DNA from: Kiritimatiellia bacterium
GTDB taxonomy: Bacteria; Verrucomicrobiota; Kiritimatiellia; UBA8416
Length of the DNA: 9,264 bases
Direction of reading: 5' to 3'
Assembly (NCBI GenBank): GCA_007126175.1
Contig: SLBU01000095.1
Coordinates: 1 to 9,264, forward strand
This document shows, piece after piece, positions 1 to 9,264 of this stretch (within the stretch, counting starts at the first letter, position 1; the number at the start of each line of letters is the position of its first letter). The position numbers were made by a program, and so were the translations under genes. The notes beneath the pieces were generated by a model. The model did not search any database and had not been told where the DNA came from. It saw only the letters and a program-made list of their open reading frames with translations.

Positions 1-329
1 CGTAAAAGGCCGCTGGGAAAGAGCGCCGGGACACGAATGCAGCGCACCGCATGGGGTTCGAGCAAGGCGCAGATCCACCGTGCCAGATTACCGCGCGCAG
101 CGCCCTCGAGGCCAGCTTGTTGGGGCGTGACAATCTGCATGCCACGTCCCGCACAGGTGGCGACAGCCCGTCCATATTCCAAGGCCGATACCATCATACC
201 GCGCCATCTTCCCACCTGCACATACACGACCGGATCCGGTGCCATGAAACCCGTTGCATATAACAAGTCAACATGTTGCTCCGGTGCACCTGCCAATACC
301 AAGGCACTTCTTACTGATTTTTCTGCCAT
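1..329 (-). CDS. N-terminal part of an M24-family (Xaa-Pro peptidase/creatinase-like) protein, cut by the window edge
   Basis: A minus-strand frame is open from an ATG at 329 to the left edge, giving about 109 residues. The protein begins MAEKSVRSALVLAG and contains LLYATGFMAPDPVVYVQVG at about residues 22-40, followed by a segment with LEYGRA at about residues 51-56. This pattern (a tyrosine-led 'YATGF', then 'DP', a beta strand, then 'LE.GRA') is what I know from the creatinase N-terminal domain that precedes the metal-binding pita-bread domain of aminopeptidase P and prolidase homologues. The catalytic domain would lie outside the window, so activity cannot be judged. An AGGAAGG ribosome binding site at 338-344 supports the start. 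The gene is divergent from dnaA, and a TATAAT -10 element lies about 50 bases upstream. The family assignment rests on pattern recognition only. Confidence 0.6.
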   Translation of the reverse strand, partial: MAEKSVRSALVLAGAPEQHVDLLYATGFMAPDPVVYVQVGRWRGMMVSALEYGRAVATCAGRGMQIVTPQQAGLEGAARGNLARWICALLEPHAVRCIRVPALFPSGLL

Positions 330-337
330 ATCGTTTC

Positions 338-344
338 CCTTCCT
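338..344 (-). promoter_or_regulatory. Shine-Dalgarno of the M24-like gene
   Basis: Read on the minus strand, AGGAAGG lies 8 bases before the ATG at 329. It decides the start of this edge-truncated gene. Confidence 0.6.
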
Positions 345-377
345 GGCCTGCACAGGCATGCCACAACCCATATCGTG

Positions 378-406
378 ATTATATTTTGCCGCGCCGGGCG
401 GATTTA
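378..406 (-). promoter_or_regulatory. Possible promoter of the M24-like gene
   Basis: The minus strand carries a perfect TATAAT at 383-378, about 48 bases upstream of the ATG, which would give a short leader with the strong ribosome binding site. A -35 at the normal distance (TAAATC or TTAAAT near 401-407) is poor, so the call depends mainly on the -10. Confidence 0.4.
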
Positions 407-444
407 AATTTTTGCAAGTACCGCATTAGGAATCAGTTAGCATC

Positions 445-466
445 ACCTGTTAATAACCTGTCAATA
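445..466 (+). repeat. 11-bp tandem direct repeat upstream of dnaA
   Basis: Two adjacent 11-bp copies, ACCTGTTAATA (445-455) and ACCTGTCAATA (456-466), differ at one base. Spacing by about one helical turn is typical of tandem binding sites for winged-helix response regulators and similar dimeric regulators. It ends 106 bases before the dnaA start and could control dnaA or the divergent gene. The 9-mer AATAACCTG within it (452-460) recurs at 2086-2094, after dnaA. Confidence 0.45.
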
Positions 467-571
467 TGTTTAAGCTTTTTTTCTTGTTTCGGGATGCGCT
501 TCGGATGACTATGGCCGCGTTTGAAACACGACACACCCGTCGTTCAACATCAGCTTATGGGGCTAGATTTT

Positions 572-580
572 TGTGGATAC
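572..580 (-). promoter_or_regulatory. DnaA-box-like site overlapping the dnaA start codon
   Basis: TGTGGATAC on the plus strand reads GTATCCACA on the minus strand, one mismatch from the classical DnaA box TTATCCACA. It includes the GTG start codon (573-575). DnaA binding here would be placed to repress its own expression. A chance match in coding sequence cannot be excluded. Confidence 0.4.
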
Positions 581-1967
581 GCTAAACGCCAATGCTATAT
601 GGACACAGGCCTGCAAACACTTGCAGGACGCCTTACATGCCGATGTCTATTCGCGTTGGATTGCCGTCATTTCGCCTGACCGGATCGAAGGCGATACCTT
701 GCATCTCGGGGTCGATAATGACTTCTACCAATCCTGGCTCGAAGAGCACTATCTACCGTTAATCTGTGATGCCCTGCGGGCCGTATCCGGACAGGATTGG
801 AAAATTGCCTTCAATGTAAGCCCCATGGATTTGTTTACCCATGCCGCCGCACAAGCGCAATCCACACCGGAGCCATCGCGCACGCTGCGCGAACGCCTCA
901 TGCCCCGCCGACCGGATACGCGCTTGCAGCTCAATCCGAAGTATACCATGAGTTCCTTCGTGGTTGGTCCAGCCAACAGTTTTGCGCATGCGGCCGCCCT
1001 TGCTGTCAGTGAGGCACCTGCCAAGGCCTACAACCCGCTTTTCATCTATGGTGGCACGGGGTTGGGCAAGACCCATTTGATGCAAGCCATTGGCCATGCC
1101 GTCGTCGAAAAGAACCGGGCCCGGCACATCTGCTACATTACCTGTGAAACCCTCTTGAATGAATATATTGATGCCCTGCAAAAACGCAGCATCACGGAAT
1201 TTCGTAAACGCTACCGTACGGTTGATTTGCTTTTAATCGACGATATCCATTTCCTTTCAGGCAAGGAACGCATCCAGGAAGAATTTTTCCACACGTTCAA
1301 TAGCCTGTTCGATGCCCACAAGCAGATCATCATGACCTCGGATCGGCCGGCCAGTGAAATTAATGGTCTCGAACAACGCTTGGTTTCGCGCTTCGAGTGG
1401 GGTTTGGTCACGGAATTGGAACGCCCCGATTTCGAGACCCGTATGGCGATCTTGCGCTTCAAGCAGCGCGAAATGTCATTGTCGGTGGATGAAAGCGTCC
1501 TGACCTTCATTGCTGAGAATGTCCGTTCCAATGTGCGGCGTCTGGAAGGTGCCTTGGTGCGCGCGGTATCCTTTATGTCCTTGACGCAGCAACCCCTCAC
1601 ACTCGATGCCCTCAAGCGACTCTTGCGTGACACGATTGAGGAAGAGCAACACGCCGAAATCAGTCTGTCGGCCATCCAAAAAGCCGTTGCTGCACATTAT
1701 GATATCCGCTTAGCCGACATGAGTAGTATCGCGCGGCCGCGCTCCATTGCAGTCCCGCGGCAGGTTGCCATGTATCTCTGTCGCTCGTTGACACCCTCCT
1801 CGCTTCCGGATATCGCCACGGCATTCAATAAGACCCATGGCACGGTCATACACGCCTGCCGTGCTGTGCAGAACCGTATGGATGTCGATTCCGACCTACG
1901 CCGGCAAGTGCAGGATATCTCCACCAAACTGGGCAAATCGATCCATGCCCTGGAACCCGTCAGCTAA
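573..1967 (+). CDS. dnaA: Chromosomal replication initiator protein DnaA
   Basis: The 464-residue protein is the AAA+ initiator that binds DnaA boxes at oriC, unwinds the origin and loads the replicative helicase. Domain I occupies roughly residues 1-85 and is joined by a short linker (about 86-120). The AAA+ core has Walker A GGTGLGKT (160-167), Walker B LLLIDDI (219-225), a sensor I segment IIMTSDRP (252-259) and the RLVSRFEWGL box VII with its arginines (269-278). Domain IV carries RSIAVPRQVAMYLCR (390-404) and the recognition helix around 417-430. The usual GGRDHTTV there is replaced by the shorter NKTHGTV. The start is a GTG, fixed by an in-frame TAG at 564-566 just upstream; the ribosome binding site is weak (GGGG at 559-562). 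The gene precedes dnaN, the classic origin-side order. Confidence 0.97.
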   Translation: MDTLNANAIWTQACKHLQDALHADVYSRWIAVISPDRIEGDTLHLGVDNDFYQSWLEEHYLPLICDALRAVSGQDWKIAFNVSPMDLFTHAAAQAQSTPEPSRTLRERLMPRRPDTRLQLNPKYTMSSFVVGPANSFAHAAALAVSEAPAKAYNPLFIYGGTGLGKTHLMQAIGHAVVEKNRARHICYITCETLLNEYIDALQKRSITEFRKRYRTVDLLLIDDIHFLSGKERIQEEFFHTFNSLFDAHKQIIMTSDRPASEINGLEQRLVSRFEWGLVTELERPDFETRMAILRFKQREMSLSVDESVLTFIAENVRSNVRRLEGALVRAVSFMSLTQQPLTLDALKRLLRDTIEEEQHAEISLSAIQKAVAAHYDIRLADMSSIARPRSIAVPRQVAMYLCRSLTPSSLPDIATAFNKTHGTVIHACRAVQNRMDVDSDLRRQVQDISTKLGKSIHALEPVS

Positions 1968-2090
1968 TGCACCCGACACACCTTTTCTTCAGATCCCAAC
2001 AACAGGATTTCCCTATCCCCGCAGTACGGCTGCATCCATGGTTGTTCCGGATTTTTGCTCTTTGATATCTTGTTGATTTCTGAACAATAA

Positions 2091-2120
2091 CCTGATGATA
2101 ACATCGGAGTTATCATCAGG
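2091..2120. repeat. Perfect 12-bp inverted repeat between dnaA and dnaN
   Basis: CCTGATGATAAC (2091-2102) and GTTATCATCAGG (2109-2120) pair perfectly around a 6-base loop, ATCGGA. The nearest T-run on the plus strand comes about ten bases later (TTTT near 2128), so it is not a canonical intrinsic terminator for dnaA, though it could act as one weakly. As DNA it could be a protein-binding palindrome in the origin. Confidence 0.6.
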
Positions 2121-2245
2121 GTGACGGTTTTGCTCAATCGGCCATCAATCGATTGCCAGCTTCGTGAACAGGTTCGCAGCACAGATCGCCCCTGTGAAAA
2201 TAGGGGTATACTGAAGTTATAAACAAATCAACAGGCTATATTATG

Positions 2246-2274
2246 TTGAATAGATTAAATAATTACGTTACATA
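2246..2274 (+). promoter_or_regulatory. Weak candidate dnaN promoter
   Basis: TTGAAT (2246-2251) and TACATA (2269-2274) are 17 bases apart, within the AT-rich stretch and about 60 bases before the dnaN start. TATACT at 2207-2212 is an alternative -10 without a good -35. Neither is strong. Confidence 0.25.
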
Positions 2275-2319
2275 CTATACCTCTCTTGCTGTAAATCAAT
2301 TGTAGCAGCAGGCGACATC

Positions 2320-2325
2320 AGGAGG
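2320..2325 (+). promoter_or_regulatory. Shine-Dalgarno of dnaN
   Basis: A full AGGAGG lies 9 bases before the dnaN ATG, which fixes that start and contrasts with the weak site of dnaA. Confidence 0.8.
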
Positions 2326-2334
2326 AAAAGAACG

Positions 2335-3423
2335 ATGAAAATTAGCGTGGAAAAGTCTGTTTTGGCTAGTGGGTTGCAAGCTGTGCAAAATGTGGTAGGT
2401 GGTCGCAACACATTACCGATCCTTTCGAATGTACTGATTGTTGCCTCGGAGGACCGGGTTACGCTTTCAACGACGGATCTGGATGTTAGCGTGCGCTGCC
2501 GCATCGTAGGGCGTGTTGAAACCGAAGGTAGCACCACGCTGCCGGTGAAACGCCTTGCGAGCATTGTACGCGAATTGCCAGGTGAAATGGTCAATATTGA
2601 AACCGATGACAAGGACCAGAGCATTGTCACATGCGGCCAATCGCGATTTAAACTGGTAGGGCTGGCCGCCGATGACTATCCGCAGCTCCCGGAAGCTGAG
2701 GGCGATATTTCGTATGAAGTGGAGCAGCGGGTATTTCGCGAAATGCTCAGGAAGACGGCTTACGCGGCCTCGACGGATGAAACCCGTTTTGTGTTGAATG
2801 GCGTACTCATGAGTTTTGCCGATGGCAAACTGACCACAGTGGCAACGGATGGGCGCCGCCTCGCGTTGGTGGAAAACGAAGTGGAATTCTCTGAGGATGT
2901 GGACATGATCCTGCCTAGCAAGGCCGTGACCGAATTGTTGCACATCCTCACAGAAAATGGATCCGTGCGCATCTATCCCCGCAAGAACCAAGTGGTCTTC
3001 GACTTGGGCGAAACCGTCATGGCATCGAAATTAATCGAGGGAACCTACCCGAACTTTCGCCAGGTGATTCCGGCACAATGCGAGGAGCGCGTCACGATTG
3101 AACGCGAAGCACTGTTGACGGCGCTGCGGCGCGCAGCCCTGGTGGTGGCCGACAAGGCCAGTGCCACAAAACTGACCTTTGCCGACAACAATCTCGTGGT
3201 TTCCACGAATACCCCTGATATCGGTGAATCGCGCGAAACGATCCCGGTCAAATATACCGGGGCGGAAATTACTGTGGCTTTCAATCCGGATTACATGATG
3301 GATCCGCTCAAGAACCTCTCGAATGATGAAATTGCAATTGAACTTACCGACAGCCTCAGCCCGGCGGTCGTGAAGTGCGATATCCCGTTCCTGTATGTAC
3401 TGATGCCAATGAGAGTTGACTAA
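2335..3423 (+). CDS. dnaN: DNA polymerase III beta subunit (sliding clamp)
   Basis: At 362 residues this is the normal length for the bacterial beta clamp, the ring-shaped dimer that tethers DNA polymerase III and many repair proteins to DNA. The N-terminal domain contains NVVGGRNTLPILSNVLI, a standard clamp signature. The middle domain has the FVLNGVL and ATDGRRLALVE segments (residues about 150-185) that are nearly invariant. The C-terminus ends YVLMPMRVD, close to the E. coli YVVMPMRL end, which forms part of the pocket for clamp-binding peptides. The start is fixed by AGGAGG. No terminator is evident between this gene and the tRNA that begins 35 bases later, so some readthrough is possible. 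All three clamp domains appear intact. Confidence 0.97.
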   Translation: MKISVEKSVLASGLQAVQNVVGGRNTLPILSNVLIVASEDRVTLSTTDLDVSVRCRIVGRVETEGSTTLPVKRLASIVRELPGEMVNIETDDKDQSIVTCGQSRFKLVGLAADDYPQLPEAEGDISYEVEQRVFREMLRKTAYAASTDETRFVLNGVLMSFADGKLTTVATDGRRLALVENEVEFSEDVDMILPSKAVTELLHILTENGSVRIYPRKNQVVFDLGETVMASKLIEGTYPNFRQVIPAQCEERVTIEREALLTALRRAALVVADKASATKLTFADNNLVVSTNTPDIGESRETIPVKYTGAEITVAFNPDYMMDPLKNLSNDEIAIELTDSLSPAVVKCDIPFLYVLMPMRVD

Positions 3424-3458
3424 TTTGCATTCAGGCGTTACAACACCAACCCTTTGTC

Positions 3459-3532
3459 TGCCCGATGGTGTAATGGTAGCACTACTGACTCTGAATCAGT
3501 CAGTCTAGGTTCGAGTCCTAGTCGGGCAACCA
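3459..3532 (+). tRNA. tRNA-Gln (anticodon CUG), with encoded CCA
   Basis: The acceptor stem TGCCCGA (3459-3465) pairs with TCGGGCA (3522-3528), followed by discriminator A and a genomically encoded CCA (3530-3532). The anticodon stem ACTGA/TCAGT (3484-3488 and 3496-3500) encloses the loop CTCTGAA, placing anticodon CTG at 3491-3493; it reads CAG, glutamine. The T arm is CTAGG-TTCGAGT-CCTAG (3505-3521), and the D loop contains AATGGTA. No tRNA-specific promoter or terminator is apparent, and asd starts 16 bases downstream. Confidence 0.95.
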
Positions 3533-3548
3533 TCTAGGTTAGGTACGT

Positions 3549-4562
3549 ATGGCAAAACGCTATAACATTGGAATCGTGGGAACCGGTGCAGTCGGTTCGG
3601 AAATGTTGCGGGTTTTGCGGCAACGTAATTTCCCTTGTTCCGAAATTCGTTTCATGGCGCGCAGTGCGCGACGCGAGGAGATTGCTGGGGAAAACGTCGA
3701 GGTAGTCGAGACGACATCCGCCGCTTTTGAAGGGCTCGATTTTGCCTTTTTTGCCGGTACGGAAGGGGAGAAGGGCGCGTCGCAATTGTTTGGCTGGGAA
3801 GCCGTCAAACGTGGCGTGACCGTCATCGATAATGGGGATGATTTTCGCATGGATCCGCGCGTGCCCTTGGTGATTCCCGAAATCAATCCGGAAGCGCTGG
3901 AAAACCATCAAGGTCTCATCGCGAATCCGAATTGCAGCACGATTATCGCGTTGATGGCCGTGGGCCCCTTGCATCGCGCCGCCGGTCTCCGGCGGATGGT
4001 AGCAGCCACCTACCAAGCTGTATCCGGTTCCGGTGCAGCGGCGGTCAGGGAACTGGAGCAGCAGCTCGAGTCTTATGGTAGCGATAGTGCCCCGCCCCCC
4101 AGTGTGTATCCGTATCCTATTCTGCTGAATTTGCTCCCGCAAATTGGTGGCCCCAAGCCGGAGCTGCCCGGCTATACGACCGAGGAAGCCAAGATGCTCT
4201 TTGAAACCCGTAAAATTTTGGGGAATGATGCCATACGTGTGAGTGCTACTTGCGTGCGTGTTGCCGTTTTCAATGGGCACGCTGAAGTACTGAACCTGGA
4301 ATTGGAAAAACCGCTATCGGCGGATGAGGCACGTGCCATACTGGCGAAAGCACCGGGGGTTCGTGTCGTGGACGATCTTGCGGCCGGTCAGTATCCGATG
4401 CCGCGCGATGCAAGTGGCACGGATACCTGCCTAGTGGGGCGTATTCGTGAAGATGCCAGTGTGGATAACGGTTTGTCCCTGTTTGTCTGTGGCGATAATA
4501 TCCGTAAGGGCGCAGCCTTGAATGCGGTGCAAATTGCTGAAACATTGATTGCACGCCAGTAG
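3549..4562 (+). CDS. asd: Aspartate-semialdehyde dehydrogenase
   Basis: The 337-residue protein catalyses NADPH-dependent reduction of L-aspartyl-4-phosphate to aspartate semialdehyde, the branch point to diaminopimelate/lysine, threonine and methionine. The N-terminal nucleotide-binding loop is GIVGTGAVGSEML (8-20). The catalytic cysteine is Cys129 in NPNCST, followed by TYQAVSGSGAAA with Gln156. The substrate-binding and base region is CVRVAVFNGHAE with Arg237 and His244; the family more often has CVRVPV. The C-terminus has DNIRKGAALNAVQIAE (316-331), typical of Asd and distinguishing it from ArgC. The ribosome binding site is modest (AGG at 3536-3538 and 3541-3543). The gene follows tRNA-Gln by 16 bases and precedes the O-antigen ligase-like gene by 23, on the same strand. 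Confidence 0.95.
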   Translation: MAKRYNIGIVGTGAVGSEMLRVLRQRNFPCSEIRFMARSARREEIAGENVEVVETTSAAFEGLDFAFFAGTEGEKGASQLFGWEAVKRGVTVIDNGDDFRMDPRVPLVIPEINPEALENHQGLIANPNCSTIIALMAVGPLHRAAGLRRMVAATYQAVSGSGAAAVRELEQQLESYGSDSAPPPSVYPYPILLNLLPQIGGPKPELPGYTTEEAKMLFETRKILGNDAIRVSATCVRVAVFNGHAEVLNLELEKPLSADEARAILAKAPGVRVVDDLAAGQYPMPRDASGTDTCLVGRIREDASVDNGLSLFVCGDNIRKGAALNAVQIAETLIARQ

Positions 4563-4585
4563 GATCGTGCGTACTCTTACGACTC

Positions 4586-5812
4586 ATGAAGTACAAGCAA
4601 TGGTGGATGGCTGCTGCACGTATCTGGGCCTATAGGCTGCTACTGACAGCCGCCTTCTTGGCCCCGTTTTCGTTGCCTGCTGGCAGATTGTTTCTGGCAC
4701 TCTCACTTGGTTTTCTGCTCTATGCCCGGATACGGCATGGGGAGCCGATCTATTGTACGCGGGTAGGGTGGTTGTGGCTCGCATTTGTCTTGGTGAGCCT
4801 GTTGGTATCCCTGCAAGGAATCGATCCACAACGGAGTGTAGGGGATATCAGTAAACTGCTCTGGTTCGCTGGTATTCCTGCCGCAGCTACCCTCATTACG
4901 GATCGCCACCGGGCCAGTATGCTGCTGGTAGCCTATGTGAACGGAAGTATTGTCCGAAGTCTCGATATTCTCCTGTTGCGTCTACCGGGCGCGTGGCGGC
5001 AGACCGAAAATGCTTTTATGCATGAGATTATCCATCGTGGATCGATGACGCATGGACAAGTTCTCCTGCTTGCTATGATTGGTGTCTTCGGATTGCTGCT
5101 CATGGAAATAATAAAACGAGGTGGTTGGAAAGTTTTAGCCATAAAAAGCAGTCAGTTTGTGCTTTTAACCTTGGCAATGTTGGTAAATTTCAAGCGTGGT
5201 TCATGGGTCGCAGTGACCGTTATCTTGGTGCTATTTGGCGTTTTGACAGGCAAGAAACGCATTCTGCTGCTGTTGCTGCTGGTTGTGCTTGCCGGTGCCT
5301 TTCATCCATTTGTACGTGCCCGCATGAGCCATTTGCGCAACGAGCTGGACATCAAGCATGGCGGCAGGCTTGTCATGTGGACCAAGATTGCCCCCGCGTT
5401 ATTACGCGAGCATCCTTACGGCGTCGGGTTTCGTGGGGTAACGCCCGAGGTGATGCAGGAGACGGCGCGGGCCCAAGGGGTACGTGTGGAAGAGCGTCGT
5501 AATCATCTGCACTCGAATCTTGTCGAAATCCCGGTAACCGTTGGCTGGGTCGCATTCCTGCTCTATGTTCTCTGGATGGGTACCGCGCTCTGGAAGGGGA
5601 GCACTGCCGCTTGGCATGCTGGCGATCCGCTTGGACGCATCCTGGCGCTGACCTATACCCTGATGCTGTTTGGTCTGATCCTCAATGGTTTTGTCGAATA
5701 CAATATGGGCGATGCCTATATCGTGCTGCCATATGGGATCCTCCTAGGGGTACTCGGTAGGGGAACCCTCGGGGCCGCGGCCAGGTTGTCTGAACTTCAC
5801 CCAGGAAGTTAG
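4586..5812 (+). CDS. O-antigen ligase/polymerase-like (Wzy_C/WaaL superfamily) membrane protein
   Basis: This 408-residue protein is very hydrophobic, with about ten likely transmembrane segments. A long hydrophilic loop (about residues 241-315) falls between the central helix block and the last helices. That loop contains GGRLVMWTKIAPALLREHPYGVGF (split: GGRLVMW 259-265, HPYGVGF 276-282) and ends with HSNLVEIPVTVGW (309-321); a conserved arginine before the loop (RGSW, 204-207) and the loop histidine are hallmarks of the superfamily. Such proteins join lipid-linked glycans to lipid A-core or to proteins, or polymerise them, on the periplasmic side. Sequence alone does not tell ligase from polymerase or from a protein O-glycosyltransferase. 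No other glycan genes lie nearby. The ribosome binding site before ATG 4586 is weak, and another in-frame ATG lies 21 bases on. Confidence 0.8.
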   Translation: MKYKQWWMAAARIWAYRLLLTAAFLAPFSLPAGRLFLALSLGFLLYARIRHGEPIYCTRVGWLWLAFVLVSLLVSLQGIDPQRSVGDISKLLWFAGIPAAATLITDRHRASMLLVAYVNGSIVRSLDILLLRLPGAWRQTENAFMHEIIHRGSMTHGQVLLLAMIGVFGLLLMEIIKRGGWKVLAIKSSQFVLLTLAMLVNFKRGSWVAVTVILVLFGVLTGKKRILLLLLLVVLAGAFHPFVRARMSHLRNELDIKHGGRLVMWTKIAPALLREHPYGVGFRGVTPEVMQETARAQGVRVEERRNHLHSNLVEIPVTVGWVAFLLYVLWMGTALWKGSTAAWHAGDPLGRILALTYTLMLFGLILNGFVEYNMGDAYIVLPYGILLGVLGRGTLGAAARLSELHPGS

Positions 5813-5824
5813 GCATTGCGGGCA

Positions 5825-7111
5825 TTACGCGAGCGTGTCTTCTTCTTCTTCGAATTCGGCGGGTAACGATTTGCTGACCTTGGCACCGAGAATGCGGATC
5901 TTATCGGCCTGCCCGAAGAGATTGCCTTTGCCATCCTTCAAACGCTTCATGGCCGTATCGAGCGCCTGCGATGTTCCCCCAAGCTTCTTCTGGGCATCGG
6001 CCACAGCCTCATAGATCAGGACGATCTGATCGTGCATGCGCCCCGCGCGCTCTGCAATTTTTTCGGCATTGCGGTTTTCGTTCTCTCTCCGCCAGATCTG
6101 GGCAATCAGTTTCAGGGTAATCATCAGAGTCGAAGGTCCGGTAATCACCACCGGTGCCTGGGCCTGCAAATAGAGCAGCTCCGGGTCTGCCTGCAACGCA
6201 GCTTGATAGGCAGGTTCAATCGGGATGCACATGATCACAAAATCCAGCGTCCGGTTGCCGAGCATGGCATCATAGCGGCGTTCCTTGAGTTCAGTGAAAT
6301 GCTTGCGTACGGATGCTATATGCTCCTTGAGCGCTTGTGCGCGATCTGTATCCGATTCCGCCCGGCAAAAGCGCTCATAGGCTGTCAGCGATACCTTCGC
6401 ATCCAGAATCACGGCCTTGTCGCCAGGCAGATGCAGCACAAAATCCGGGCGTTGCAGCGTACCCTCTTCCGTACGCCCCGATACCTGCCGGCTATATTCG
6501 CGATCCAACGAAAGTCCTGAAACTTCCAGCATGCGTTCCACAATCACCTCGCCCCAATCGCCCTGTTTCTTGGCATCGCCCTTGATCGCCAGGGCCAATT
6601 GGTTTGCATCCTCACTCACCTTGGTGCTCAGGCTCTGCAACTGCCGTACCTGCTCGATCAGGCGCCCCGCTTGCTCCGTCTCACTGCGGTGTACATCCTC
6701 CACACGTTTTCGGAATGCATCCAACTGCTGTTTGAAAGGTTCCAATACTGACGTGATACGACTGCGCTGTAGCTCGGCACCCGCCTGCTCCCGCGATTCG
6801 AAAATGCGATTGGCGAGATTCTCGAACTCCGTTTTTAGGCGCGCCTCGGCCTGCTGCAGCAATTGAAGCTTCTCATGACCCTGCTGCTTCTCGTGTTCGA
6901 GATCGCGTTCCAATTGTGCCTTTTCTATTCGTAAGGCATCCAGTTGTTGGCTTTTTTCGGAAAGGGTGATCTGTGCCTGCTTCCATTCCTGCTCGGCCGC
7001 TGCCAGTTGCATGAACCGCTCCCGATCGGGCTGGTCTCGCAGCAGACGCCACCAGATCGTTGCCAGCAGAACCAGACACATCACCAGCAAAAATAAAATG
7101 GTCACTACCAT
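5825..7111 (-). CDS. rmuC: DNA recombination protein RmuC homologue
   Basis: RmuC-family proteins limit recombination between inverted repeats and have a predicted nuclease-like fold. The N-terminus is a single membrane anchor (about residues 1-22, hydrophobic, ending WWRLLRD). A long Gln/Glu/Lys-rich coiled coil follows (about 30-165), then the conserved domain with KKQGDWGEVIVERML (182-196). The segment RPDF...VILDAKVS (about 221-241) gives a PD...DxK pattern like PD-(D/E)XK nucleases. LDFVIMCIPIEPAY (about 289-302) is also typical. The C-terminus is acidic (EFEEEEDTLA). I start at ATG 7111 (428 residues), because GAGG lies 6-7 bases upstream. A TTG six bases earlier would directly abut that site. 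It converges on the preceding gene with 12 bases between stops and no visible terminator. Confidence 0.93.
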   Translation of the reverse strand: MVVTILFLLVMCLVLLATIWWRLLRDQPDRERFMQLAAAEQEWKQAQITLSEKSQQLDALRIEKAQLERDLEHEKQQGHEKLQLLQQAEARLKTEFENLANRIFESREQAGAELQRSRITSVLEPFKQQLDAFRKRVEDVHRSETEQAGRLIEQVRQLQSLSTKVSEDANQLALAIKGDAKKQGDWGEVIVERMLEVSGLSLDREYSRQVSGRTEEGTLQRPDFVLHLPGDKAVILDAKVSLTAYERFCRAESDTDRAQALKEHIASVRKHFTELKERRYDAMLGNRTLDFVIMCIPIEPAYQAALQADPELLYLQAQAPVVITGPSTLMITLKLIAQIWRRENENRNAEKIAERAGRMHDQIVLIYEAVADAQKKLGGTSQALDTAMKRLKDGKGNLFGQADKIRILGAKVSKSLPAEFEEEEDTLA

Positions 7112-7132
7112 ATACAACCTCGACGCTCTGGG

Positions 7133-7162
7133 TTACAAAAAGATTCAAGGTCTGTGTATATC
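7133..7162 (+). promoter_or_regulatory. Weak candidate promoter for the four-helix-bundle cassette
   Basis: TTACAA (7133-7138) and TATATC (7157-7162) are 18 bases apart, upstream of the left repeat array. Transcription from here would place the whole left hairpin in the 5' leader of the four-helix gene. The match to consensus is mediocre. Confidence 0.25.
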
Positions 7163-7194
7163 ACAAACCGCCGCAATACGAACCCATTTTTGCA

Positions 7195-7287
7195 AGGACC
7201 GTATTGACCGTATTGACAATGGAATGAGAAATACCGATGGTGGTTGCGCAAAACTGTCAATAAGGTCAATCCGGTCAATGAGGTCAA
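7195..7287. repeat. Left hairpin of opposed 9-bp repeat arrays
   Basis: The left arm has GAC at 7197, 7206 and 7215, exactly 9 bases apart, in units AGGACCGTA, TTGACCGTA and TTGACAATG (7195-7221). After a 34-base spacer the opposite orientation appears as GTCAA at 7256, 7265, 7274 and 7283, again exactly 9 apart. Segment 7197-7218 pairs with 7255-7276 at 20 of 22 positions, a strong hairpin ending 24 bases before the start codon of the four-helix gene. It matches no standard feature type that I know and shares its units with the array downstream of the gene. Confidence 0.85.
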
Positions 7288-7298
7288 AGAAAACGATG

Positions 7299-7305
7299 AA
7301 AGGAG
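7299..7305 (+). promoter_or_regulatory. Shine-Dalgarno of the four-helix-bundle gene
   Basis: AAAGGAG lies 6 bases before ATG 7312 and only 11 bases after the last repeat unit of the left hairpin, so folding of the array could affect access to it. Confidence 0.7.
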
Positions 7306-7311
7306 CGTGCG

Positions 7312-8073
7312 ATGTCTGAATTGTTCGATAAACACGGGGGCTTTCGCAAGCTGCATTCTTTTACGCTTTCCACGATCGTGCAGCTTGAGACGCTCCGTTT
7401 CTGTCGTTGCTTCCTGACGTTCGACCACCGCGAGGCGGACACGAAGTTCTATGACCCCAAGGGACGGCAATACGACCAGATGACGCAGGCTGCCCGTAGT
7501 GGCCGCCAGAATATCATCGAGGGCTCCGAGCGCTCCGCGACATCCAAGGACACCGAGATGAAGCTGACCGATGTGGCGCGCGCCAGCCTCAGTGAGCTGC
7601 GCGGCGATTATGAGATTATCATTCTCGACCGCGGCCAGCTCCCGTGGTCTATTCATTCGCCAGAAGCCAAAGCGGTGAATGCCATCTCGTTGGATGATGC
7701 ACCTTTTCGGGACGATTTGGTGCATGAGTCGGCCAAGCATGCGCTGAAGCAGCGCGAAAAATATGCGCGCTGGCTGGATTCCGACGATATGAGCGTGGTG
7801 GCGAATGCCATGCTCATCATGATTGGCCGCGCCCTGAAGATGCTCAAGAGCCAGACCGAGGCACAGGGTAAGAAATTTGAGGAAACGGGGGGCTTCAGCG
7901 AACGGCTCATGACCAAGCGCATTGAAGCGCGCGAAACGCAGAAAAACGACGAAGCGCCCGAGTGTCCGCAATGCGGCAAGGCCATGCGCCGCCGCAGATC
8001 CGCCAGAGGTGAATTTTGGGGTTGCCTCGCATTTCCAGACTGTAAGGGCACGCGGCCCATGGGGGAGAAATGA
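7312..8073 (+). CDS. Four-helix-bundle protein with C-terminal zinc-ribbon (suffix) domain
   Basis: This 253-residue protein has an N-terminal four-helix-bundle domain of the 23S rRNA intervening-sequence/Avd-like family. The signature is QAARSGRQNIIEGSERSATS (59-78) followed by DVARASLSELRGDY (87-100). A middle helical region (about 130-210) leads to a C-terminal zinc ribbon with Cys218, Cys221, Cys238 and Cys244 in CPQCGKAM...GEFWGCLAFPDCKGTRP. That resembles the C4 zinc fingers of topoisomerase I and suggests nucleic-acid binding. The biochemical function of this family is unknown to me; relatives are encoded in rRNA intervening sequences and, as Avd, in diversity-generating retroelements. 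No reverse transcriptase or target gene is present here. The start has a good ribosome binding site, and the stop codon is embedded in the downstream array. Confidence 0.85.
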   Translation: MSELFDKHGGFRKLHSFTLSTIVQLETLRFCRCFLTFDHREADTKFYDPKGRQYDQMTQAARSGRQNIIEGSERSATSKDTEMKLTDVARASLSELRGDYEIIILDRGQLPWSIHSPEAKAVNAISLDDAPFRDDLVHESAKHALKQREKYARWLDSDDMSVVANAMLIMIGRALKMLKSQTEAQGKKFEETGGFSERLMTKRIEARETQKNDEAPECPQCGKAMRRRRSARGEFWGCLAFPDCKGTRPMGEK

Positions 8074-8177
8074 CCGTATTGACCCGATTGACCGTATTGA
8101 CGGGGCGGTGGCCTGCTGCGCAGGCGCAGCTAAGCCGAAGGCCTTTCCCGCATTTGTCAATACGGTCAATGAGGTCA
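8071..8177. repeat. Right hairpin of opposed 9-bp repeat arrays
   Basis: TGAC recurs at 8071, 8080, 8089 and 8098, exactly 9 bases apart, and the first TGA is the stop codon of the four-helix gene. The opposite orientation follows with GTCA at 8156, 8165 and 8174. Segment 8087-8101 pairs perfectly with 8156-8170 (15 bp), with five further pairs beyond a 2-base mismatch. The 54-base loop has its own GC hairpin, GCCTGC-TGC-GCAGGC (8111-8125). Units are the same as in the left array, mainly TTGACCGTA. Confidence 0.85.
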
Positions 8178-8248
8178 GAGCAACATGGTTGGGAAAGAAA
8201 TGGAGGTATCATCGAAAACAGGACTCTTTTGTTGTGTTGTGTTCTCAC

Positions 8249-8285
8249 GATGTTCATGCAGCGGGCGGTTGCCCATGAACATTTT
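8249..8285 (+). terminator. Possible terminator of the four-helix-bundle transcript
   Basis: ATGTTCATG (8250-8258) pairs with CATGAACAT (8274-8282). After a 5-base bulge on the left side (8259-8263), GGC pairs with GCC around a GGTT loop. TTTTC follows immediately. The stem is 12 bp and the T-run is short, so efficiency is uncertain. Confidence 0.45.
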
Positions 8286-8386
8286 CACCAGATATTCATT
8301 CGAGGCGAGTTTATATCGGTTCCTGTCGATGTGCTCGAAGCGCTCGAACGCGATTGAGGTTTGTTATGACTTCTGAAAGCAAATAC

Positions 8387-8399
8387 CCGACGCGCTCGG
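8387..8399 (-). terminator. Weak hairpin after cobO
   Basis: CCGA (8387-8390) and TCGG (8396-8399) form a 4-bp stem starting 7 bases beyond the cobO stop on the minus strand, followed by a loose U-rich stretch (TATTTGCTTT). It is too short to be convincing. Confidence 0.25.
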
Positions 8400-8405
8400 A
8401 GTAAA

Positions 8406-8957
8406 TTAGAACTCCACACCCTGCTGTGCCTTGTGACCCTTTTCCATGCCGTGCTTGATGCATTCCATGCTGGTGACGGTATCGGCCAGTGCGATGAGTG
8501 CTGGTGGGGCACCGCGACCGGTCATCACAAGTACGCTACCGGGGCGGGCCAGACGAGCTGCATCCGCAACCTCAGATGCTGTTAGCAGGCCACGCTCGAT
8601 GGCGGTACAAATCTCGTCGAGCAGGACCAACTCGTACTGTCCGCTTTGCAGGGCTTCGATTGCTATTTTCAAACCGTCTTGTGCAGCCGTGCGATGGCAG
8701 GGATACTGCAGGTGATCCGGTTTAGGAACAAACCCCTTGCCGACTTGTTGCATGTGTACGTGCGGGAAAGCTTTGAAGGCGGTGAGTTCGCCTGTGGAGT
8801 CGTCGGCCTTGAGAAACTGGATGATGCGCGTAGGCATATTGTGGCCGGCCGCACGCAGCGCCATACCCATGGCGGCGGTGGTCTTGCCTTTGCCATCACC
8901 GGTGAATACGAGGATCCGGGCTGGTAGCTGTTGCGTTTCTGCGTCGTTTCTTGTCAT
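8406..8957 (-). CDS. cobO: Corrinoid adenosyltransferase (CobA/CobO/BtuR type)
   Basis: The enzyme transfers the 5'-deoxyadenosyl group of ATP to reduced cobalt in corrinoids, the adenosylation step of cobalamin synthesis and salvage. From ATG 8957 it is 183 residues, close to the usual size. The P-loop is GDGKGKTT (20-27), in the family-specific context VFTGDGKGKTTAAMGMALRA. A hydrophobic strand with VLLDE (111-115) follows, then TGRGAPPALI. The C-terminus KHGMEKGHKAQQGVEF matches the family's closing KAQxGIEF motif. An upstream in-frame ATG at 9023 would add 22 residues, but that stretch covers a terminator hairpin of a riboswitch leader and has no ribosome binding site, so I reject it. No other cobalamin genes are in the window. 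The gene is expected to be B12-repressed through its leader. Confidence 0.92.
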   Translation of the reverse strand: MTRNDAETQQLPARILVFTGDGKGKTTAAMGMALRAAGHNMPTRIIQFLKADDSTGELTAFKAFPHVHMQQVGKGFVPKPDHLQYPCHRTAAQDGLKIAIEALQSGQYELVLLDEICTAIERGLLTASEVADAARLARPGSVLVMTGRGAPPALIALADTVTSMECIKHGMEKGHKAQQGVEF

Positions 8958-8970
8958 CGATTCTACCCAA

Positions 8971-9006
8971 ACAAAAACGCATCCTGAGCTCGAAAGCCGA
9001 GGATGC
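8971..9006 (-). terminator. Leader terminator in front of cobO (riboswitch expression platform)
   Basis: On the minus strand GCATCCT and AGGATGC form a 7-bp stem (9000-9006 with 8979-8985), then a 2x2 internal loop and an inner 3-bp stem. GTTTTTGT follows directly (8978-8971). It stands 13 bases before the cobO ATG, so transcripts reaching cobO must read through it. An inverted GTAATC/GATTAC pair upstream (9029-9034 and 9055-9060) may take part in an alternative fold. Confidence 0.75.
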
Positions 9007-9086
9007 CTGTATTTTTCATCCATGGTGTGTAATCAACGCCATTCCACGAGACCCGATTACGATTTTTCTCATTATCTATGTTTCTG

Positions 9087-9264
9087 TAGCCGATATTCTG
9101 ACTTTCGGATCGCTCTCCTGTTGCGCCTTCCCGTCTTACGATAGTGGCCTCGTGCAACCATTGCCAAAGAGTTTTTGCATGAGGCCACCTGCGGGCATTG
9201 CGCCAAGCGCGCCCAGTGGGCAGGATGCTTCGCTGTAATGTTGTATGTGGTCGGGTTGCCAGCC
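9087..9264 (-). ncRNA. Cobalamin riboswitch (aptamer), 5' end near or beyond the window edge
   Basis: Read on the minus strand, positions 9104-9087 give AAGTCAGAATATCGGCTA, matching 14 of 18 positions of the B12-box consensus rAGYCMGgAgaCCkGCCa as I remember it. Just 5' is GGGAAGGC (9132-9125), and before it GGCCACT (9149-9143), the usual order CACT - hairpin - GGGAAGG - GATCCGAAAGTCAG. A 14-bp stem with one mismatch (9175-9188 with 9144-9157) fits the variable peripheral arm, and CCCGCA lies at 9195-9190. The 5' half (AGCGAAGC instead of GGGAA, near 9235) departs from consensus, and I could not place the 5' strand of P1. The cobO position downstream agrees with this class. Confidence 0.8.

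Follow-up and report, generated by a model that had tools for sequence, protein, structure and literature searches.

A four-helix-bundle gene between arrays of 9-base-spaced repeats: a candidate mobile element without a transposase

The question raised by a 9,264-nt stretch of DNA from a Kiritimatiellia bacterium (contig SLBU01000095.1, positions 1 to 9,264; hereafter the window) is whether a gene encoding a four-helix-bundle protein and the arrays of short repeats on both of its sides belong together, and what kind of unit they would form. The block of gene and arrays is located between the rmuC and cobO reading frames, and cores of the TTGACC/GGTCAA type recur at exact 9-base spacing in four arrays around the single gene, as read by eye and with two repeat finders. 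A preliminary description of this DNA had reported the arrays as two hairpins, one before and one after the gene, and all of its coordinates were reproduced by the repeat finders (Table 1); its figure for the outer arms was confirmed by reading the sequence, the arms being inverted copies of each other with 19 of 21 bases complementary (30 nt at 83% complementarity in the repeat finder). Sequence comparison indicates that a block of this composition, of which the window has one copy, recurs at different places in distant bacteria. Concerning the nature of this block, we consider it somewhat better than an even bet that it is a minimal mobile element: the arrays, with their fixed spacing, would be the ends bound by its four-helix protein, while cutting and joining are left to the host.

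Recurrence of the block and its arrays

One genome per species was scanned for 84,980 species, which yielded 257 relatives of the window protein, and the best 80 were kept. Among these 80, the 62 nearest (L032-L093) showed 70-85% identity in the best segment, and their record titles cover at least seven phyla, mostly as metagenome-assembled genomes (MAGs). The window-type set comprises 63 loci including the window, 57 of them with at least 250 bp on both sides. In these 57 loci, GTCA/TGAC arrays of at least two units were found upstream in 50, downstream in 49 and on both sides in 43, while only one of 99 control windows (300 bp each, 2.1-2.4 kb away) contained such an array. Locus L087, alone among the 63, lacked a GTCA/TGAC array and carried a 9-base GGAC array instead. 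In the window, the gene's stop codon plus the following C (8071-8074) form the first TGAC of the downstream array, so that this array begins at the gene's end; TGAC was found at the gene end in 19 of 61 window-type genes.

The neighbor genes of the window-type block vary between loci. The type I restriction gene hsdR was located within 206 bp after the block in 21 of the 62 loci (two of them fragments), and hsdS at most 1.5 kb upstream in 16 of the loci with hsdR (three proteins verified by Pfam), the distance from the hsdS stop codon to the array start being 0-73 nt in the 13 measurable cases. In L086 (4650-5000), as well as in L085, L044, and L050, the hsdS end and an array hairpin are repeated upstream of the block; in L086 this is a direct repeat of ~139 bp with three occurrences. 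A search of 50,697 phage and 72,556 plasmid records revealed none with 80% or more of the window protein. Partial matches in 34 plasmid records were mostly to topoisomerase zinc ribbons, and a Prevotella nigrescens plasmid record matched an annotated suffix-domain protein (63% covered, 33% identical).

Arrays of other kinds accompany the remaining relatives. In the 18 next relatives (49-55% identity, also among the best 80 of 257) GTCA arrays were absent within 300 bp; 14 carried TCGA/CGAC arrays of period 9 or 10, two had other cores and two had no array. A detector of any 4-mer or its complement at a constant period of 6-12, applied to 300 bp on each side and requiring one run of at least three units and at least five units in total, was passed by 57/62 window-type loci, 16/18 of the next relatives, 38/89 TIGR04258 matches (the window's own excluded) and 19/30 of the best TIGR02436 loci per genome. 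The respective controls gave 2/20 for rmuC flanks and 1/50 for the same loci far from the gene, and at least five units were reached by 0-0.8% of dinucleotide shuffles of the relatives' flanks. A TIGR02436-like match was present in 34 plasmid records, of which 16, all cyanobacterial, were examined; nine passed, for example with GGGAGTA upstream and its complement downstream. In the seven loci missed by the detector, visual inspection revealed 7-8-base runs that are short or degenerate; these loci were left out of the counts. Very long period-10 TCGAC arrays of 25-26 consecutive units were observed in L101, upstream of the gene, and in L109. L003 and L167 have no short-period array by the detector, and there the block is flanked by direct repeats of the upstream gene's end.

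On a tree of 206 proteins, 139 of them with scored arrays, the period changed 16 times compared to a shuffled-label mean of 53 (minimum 47), and core and period together changed 54 times compared to a mean of 82 (minimum 79). Period 7 was found in 23 of the 28 plain four-helix (S23-like) proteins, and period 9 or 10 in 99 of the 111 suffix-domain proteins. These distributions indicate that array type, i.e., core and period, is tied to the protein subfamily.

Table 1. Positions of the arrays, gene and protein domains of the block in the window.
Feature	Position	Strand	Evidence
Upstream outer array, 3 units TTGACCnnn, cores at 7197, 7206, 7215	7197..7217	-	Sequence reading, repeat finders
Upstream inner array, 4 units GTCAAnnnG at 7256, 7265, 7274, 7283	7256..7287	+	Sequence reading, repeat finders, pattern count
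AAGGAG, likely ribosome-binding site of the four-helix gene	7300..7305	+	Inferred from sequence reading
Gene for 253-aa four-helix-bundle protein with suffix domain and zinc ribbon	7312..8073	+	Open reading frame, profile searches, structure comparison
Suffix domain TIGR04258, residues 162-207	7795..7932	+	49.3 bits, cut-off 40
Topoisomerase-type C4 zinc ribbon PF01396, residues 217-250	7960..8061	+	43.8 bits, cut-off 32
Downstream inner array, 4 units TGACnnnnT at 8071, 8080, 8089, 8098	8071..8101	-	Sequence reading, repeat finder, pattern count
Downstream outer array, 3 units GTCAnnnnG at 8156, 8165, 8174	8156..8177	+	Sequence reading, repeat finder, pattern count

Occupied sites, empty sites and array-only copies

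In the Verrucomicrobiaceae loci L064 and L065 a window-type block lies between a gene X and a gene Y, with an array touching the stop codon of Y. In L061, from a sister genome, the same two genes are ~55 bp apart, and that locus has its own block at the other end of X, 90% identical to that of L065 and 88% to that of L064. Identity stops at the arrays in such compared pairs, as also in L078/L091; the flanks of L064, L065, and L061, at 78-92% identity, are too diverged to show target duplication.

Closer comparisons were available for relatives with 7-base arrays, in which six sites were compared (L290, L295, L299, L297, L292, and L293). A ~425-bp block of array, gene and array is present in L290 (Trichormus variabilis plasmid C), T. 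variabilis 0441 and Scytonema NIES-4073, and absent from six plasmids at 97.6-98.5% identity. The junctions were read in one occupied plasmid (L290) and in two of the six empty ones (L354 and L355). The empty-site junction is AAAAAGTAATTAACA, while the occupied site reads AAAAAGTAAT, then the block, then GTAATTAACA, corresponding to a 5-bp GTAAT target duplication, within which the stop codon of the upstream gene lies. A decayed block occupies the same site in L358. Comparison of L295 with L360 revealed a probable TTCTA duplication, again including the stop codon, while L299 and L362 differ with an overlap of ATG only (3 bp), and in L297 ~12 bp are replaced at the junction. L295 and L299 belong to one operon, with blocks at two different junctions, and the L293 site has a copy in L359, where the arrays are present and no gene is annotated. 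These alignments indicate that related DNA either has the entire block or lacks it entirely. Taken with the arrays flanking the subfamily in distant phyla, the array type following the subfamily and the S23/XCC0516-like fold of the protein, they bear out the earlier proposal that protein and repeats form one unit.

Arrays were also found apart from the gene. The pattern GTCA-N5-GTCA-N5-GTCA has nine matches in the window's 1.33-Mb genome, five at the block and four at two other places, and its letter-reversed control has none. One-armed, gene-less 4-unit arrays of window type were observed in this genome at G000:C38:1564-1599 and G000:C136:7029-7064. The same comparison, with counts that also cover the arrays of the block itself, was extended to the relatives. 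In 38 genomes with a window-type kept locus the pattern matched 576 times vs. 176 for the control (32 genomes up, 2 down; Wilcoxon p 3e-6), and in 10 genomes with a kept locus of another type 29 vs. 245 times. The control ACTG-N5-ACTG-N5-ACTG is abundant in G098 (the genome of L101) and G102, with 209 and 25 matches, and other 9-base arrays thus exist there. Among 57 relative genomes, the eight with a scored window-type gene gave 87 vs. 5 matches and the 49 without it 72 vs. 53. These counts indicate that gene-less arrays are in excess in genomes with the window's gene type. The case considered refuting by the preliminary description, namely arrays scattered through the genome, was therefore encountered by half: gene-less arrays exist, and they are in excess where the gene type is present.

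In the Verrucomicrobiaceae genomes G077-G079, 39 array-only places were read, of which 35 lie inside mechanically found frames of at least 100 codons and 27 inside frames of at least 350; the reading frame is preserved by units of 9 bases. An array is common to both members of nine orthologous pairs, and in one loop the array is present in G078 and G079 and replaced in G077 and G086. Since the codon content of the control pattern differs, part of the array-only excess may be ordinary coding sequence. In G021 five array-only copies (L155-L159) have a near-identical unit order (GTCATTAAGGTCAACG..) with different genes around them, resembling a dispersed repeat family.

Weighing a proposed mobile element against its rivals

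The window protein passed the curated cut-off of the TIGR04258 four-helix suffix profile and fell below those of the plain four-helix (S23) profiles (TIGR02436, 23.3 bits, cut-off 24; PF05635, 22.0 bits, cut-off 33.8). Its fold resembles S23/XCC0516, since re-alignment with VIA ranks S23 proteins first; Foldseek alone gave no match at E < 0.001. Avd, the protein of diversity-generating retroelements, ranked level with unrelated helical bundles in this re-alignment. The zinc ribbon matches topoisomerase I structures by sequence. Profile searches of all reading frames inside the block returned the four-helix protein as the sole family match, with no transposase or recombinase, and no ribbon-helix-helix or helix-turn-helix domain matched in Pfam and NCBIfam at E up to 0.1.

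A course of events may be outlined as follows. An oligomer of the four-helix protein would grip several 9-base units, the zinc ribbon possibly helping to hold nucleic acid, and the two array sets would be brought together by the array-bound protein. Replication or repair enzymes of the host could then cut, join and insert the block at harmless places, e.g., stop codons inside operons, and array-only copies may arise as by-products.

A number of observations speak against such an element. A clear target duplication was found at only one of the six compared sites, all in 7-base relatives, with one more probable and two showing none. The empty site of the window's own block was not found in its genus: in the sister G001 (rmuC 79% identical), the proposed check of the cobO-rmuC interval revealed that the block is absent in the 840 bases before rmuC, where another gene is located, and that the gene order differs, giving no clean empty site. 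G001, G003, G004, and G038, which belong to the 49 genomes counted as lacking the gene, still hold 4-11 pattern matches, some of them two-armed arrays with no gene, and the link between array and gene is therefore imperfect. In the wider family, 33 of the 89 TIGR04258 genes lack any run of three units and only 38 pass the detector, so that homologous genes without arrays, a further refuting case of the preliminary description, do occur in part. The agreement of gene and array can be fully accounted for if the two are inherited together, and by itself does not prove binding. Finally, the window-type loci derive mainly from MAGs, in which mis-binning is possible.

Among the alternatives, the one that survives best, improbable as we consider it, is that the arrays are operators at which the protein tunes its own expression through multiple short sites, the block being moved by other elements or recombination. 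Arrays of short sites bound by repressors are known, e.g., omega heptads and MetJ boxes, and here arrays stand directly before the gene with sites at fixed spacing. However, they are also present after the gene, often from its stop codon as in the 19 genes ending in TGAC, as well as far away, and the compared blocks end at the arrays, which operators would not require.

Slightly less probable is an RNA element akin to the 23S intervening sequences, in which the arrays would pair in the transcript, RNase III would excise the block, the operon would tolerate the insertion and recombination would spread it. The S23-type fold, the insertions inside operons and the inverted orientation of the outermost arms in 71 of 93 scorable loci are in line with this possibility, while the arms share the same orientation in the other 22. 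In 64 two-arm window-type hairpins (median loop 15 nt, 312 spacer positions), Watson-Crick pairing of the spacers in the nested register was 0.359 vs. 0.346 (sd 0.026) with arms swapped between loci, and at the best shift 0.553 vs. 0.498, a value equaled by 6 of 500 permutations. Complementarity of the spacers thus does not exceed permutation in the nested register and does so weakly at the best shift. A paired stem as the conserved feature was not supported, nor was a role of the hairpins as stems. What is conserved is GTCAA(T/C)NNG every 9 bases: spacers vary inside one array while core and spacing stay constant. Since core and spacing are kept and pairing is not, recognition of spaced sites by a protein is favored.

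On a par with the RNA element in our estimation is an Avd-like action, in which the protein would recruit a host reverse transcriptase copying the block into new sites. PF00078 was not found in 7 of 16 genomes carrying the block or close kin, the window's included, although these are incomplete MAGs. A diversity-generating retroelement was rejected, as no reverse transcriptase is present in the window and none was found in the same seven carriers. In G089 (the genome of L080) 17 reverse transcriptase matches with identical scores were observed, probably copies of one retroelement. Ordinary microsatellites grown by slippage and unlinked to the gene are very unlikely, even though repeats of short period occur frequently between bacterial genes (PMC6344855), given both-side arrays in 43/57 loci vs. 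1/99 controls, the tie of core and period to the subfamily, and spacers that differ within an array while core and spacing stay; control windows and shuffles also disfavor slippage or chance as the sole cause.

Each of these four rivals leaves unexplained one of the downstream arrays, the empty sites, the array-only copies or the missing enzymes. A mobile element bounded by protein-bound arrays may moreover be one member of a bacteria-wide class, to which we give a little less than even odds: transposase-free elements of one four-helix-bundle protein with subfamily-specific arrays (period 7, 8, 9, or 10) as ends, which would insert into operons at stop codons and shed array-only copies, would have given rise to the heptamers and nonamers dispersed in the genomes of cyanobacteria, xanthomonads, Beggiatoaceae and others, and would be free-living kin of rRNA intervening sequences and Avd. 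If so, this would be a new kind of mobile element carrying neither transposase nor reverse transcriptase, and short repeats so far unexplained in many bacterial genomes would be accounted for by arrays that serve as element ends. Linking S23-type proteins and dispersed repeats gives each a testable partner, in the form of a protein with its cognate array and of occupied and empty sites.

Comparison with known systems and further observations

In REPIN/RAYT systems, short inverted motifs lie on both sides of the RAYT gene, which encodes a transposase, and further copies of the motif alone occur in the carrier genomes. The block is similar in having flanking motifs and motif-only copies in carrier genomes, but the window protein matches no transposase family. 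The cyanobacterial short tandemly repeated repetitive (STRR) sequences belong with the dispersed heptamers described next.

Dispersed heptamers have been described as TAACTGA in Beggiatoaceae and cyanobacteria (PMC4679880), as GGGAATC in Xanthomonas (PMC4692102) and in a prokaryote-wide survey (PMC6344855), in the consulted parts of these papers without known mechanism or function. For TAACTGA it was stated that "no mechanism is evident"; the mobile element proposed there, a protein that binds the repeats, was not identified (PMC4679880). The arrays studied here share with the heptamers, compared by their published description only, a short period, a mostly intergenic location and an occurrence in distant phyla. 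However, the period is 9 in the window and 7 in the heptamers, and no four-helix gene is named in those parts, while in the present loci such genes are found between arrays with many different cores.

Intervening sequences of 23S rRNA with an S23 frame occur in Leptospira and Coxiella, and a role of this frame in mobility is an older idea (PMC4990558). According to the part of that source consulted, the function of S23 proteins is not known, and XCC0516, of the same fold, is a pentamer (PMC4990558). Like these sequences, the block resembles a small selfish element of ~430 nt with one four-helix gene between inverted ends. In contrast, it lies outside an rRNA gene (no rRNA match in 6900-8500, where Rfam gave one sub-threshold match only, to an animal microRNA), its ends consist of short sites repeated at a fixed spacing and apparently not of one long stem, and its protein carries a suffix domain and a zinc ribbon. 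With the Avd systems it shares the four-helix fold, but no reverse transcriptase was found in the window or, as PF00078 matches, in its 69%-complete genome, and no template/variable repeat pair in 6900-8500, the part searched for repeats. The block thus meets no known family on all tested features: it is not an rRNA intervening sequence by its place, nor a retroelement, no reverse transcriptase having been found, nor a known transposon, as it has no transposase. Among titles and abstract openings of open-licence papers, none was found joining four-helix genes with short-period arrays; one reports two four-helix genes among strain-specific genes, with repeats not linked to them in the part consulted (PMC8700078).

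Other four-helix genes were observed inside CRISPR (clustered regularly interspaced short palindromic repeats) operons, according to annotation between cas6 and cas4 in two plasmids and between cas10 and a cmr3-type gene (L291, L296, and L300), and, by eye, beside a cas4-like frame in the MAG loci L005, L008, and L207. Elsewhere in the window, positions 573-3423 hold reading frames that by eye resemble DnaA and the DNA polymerase III beta subunit.
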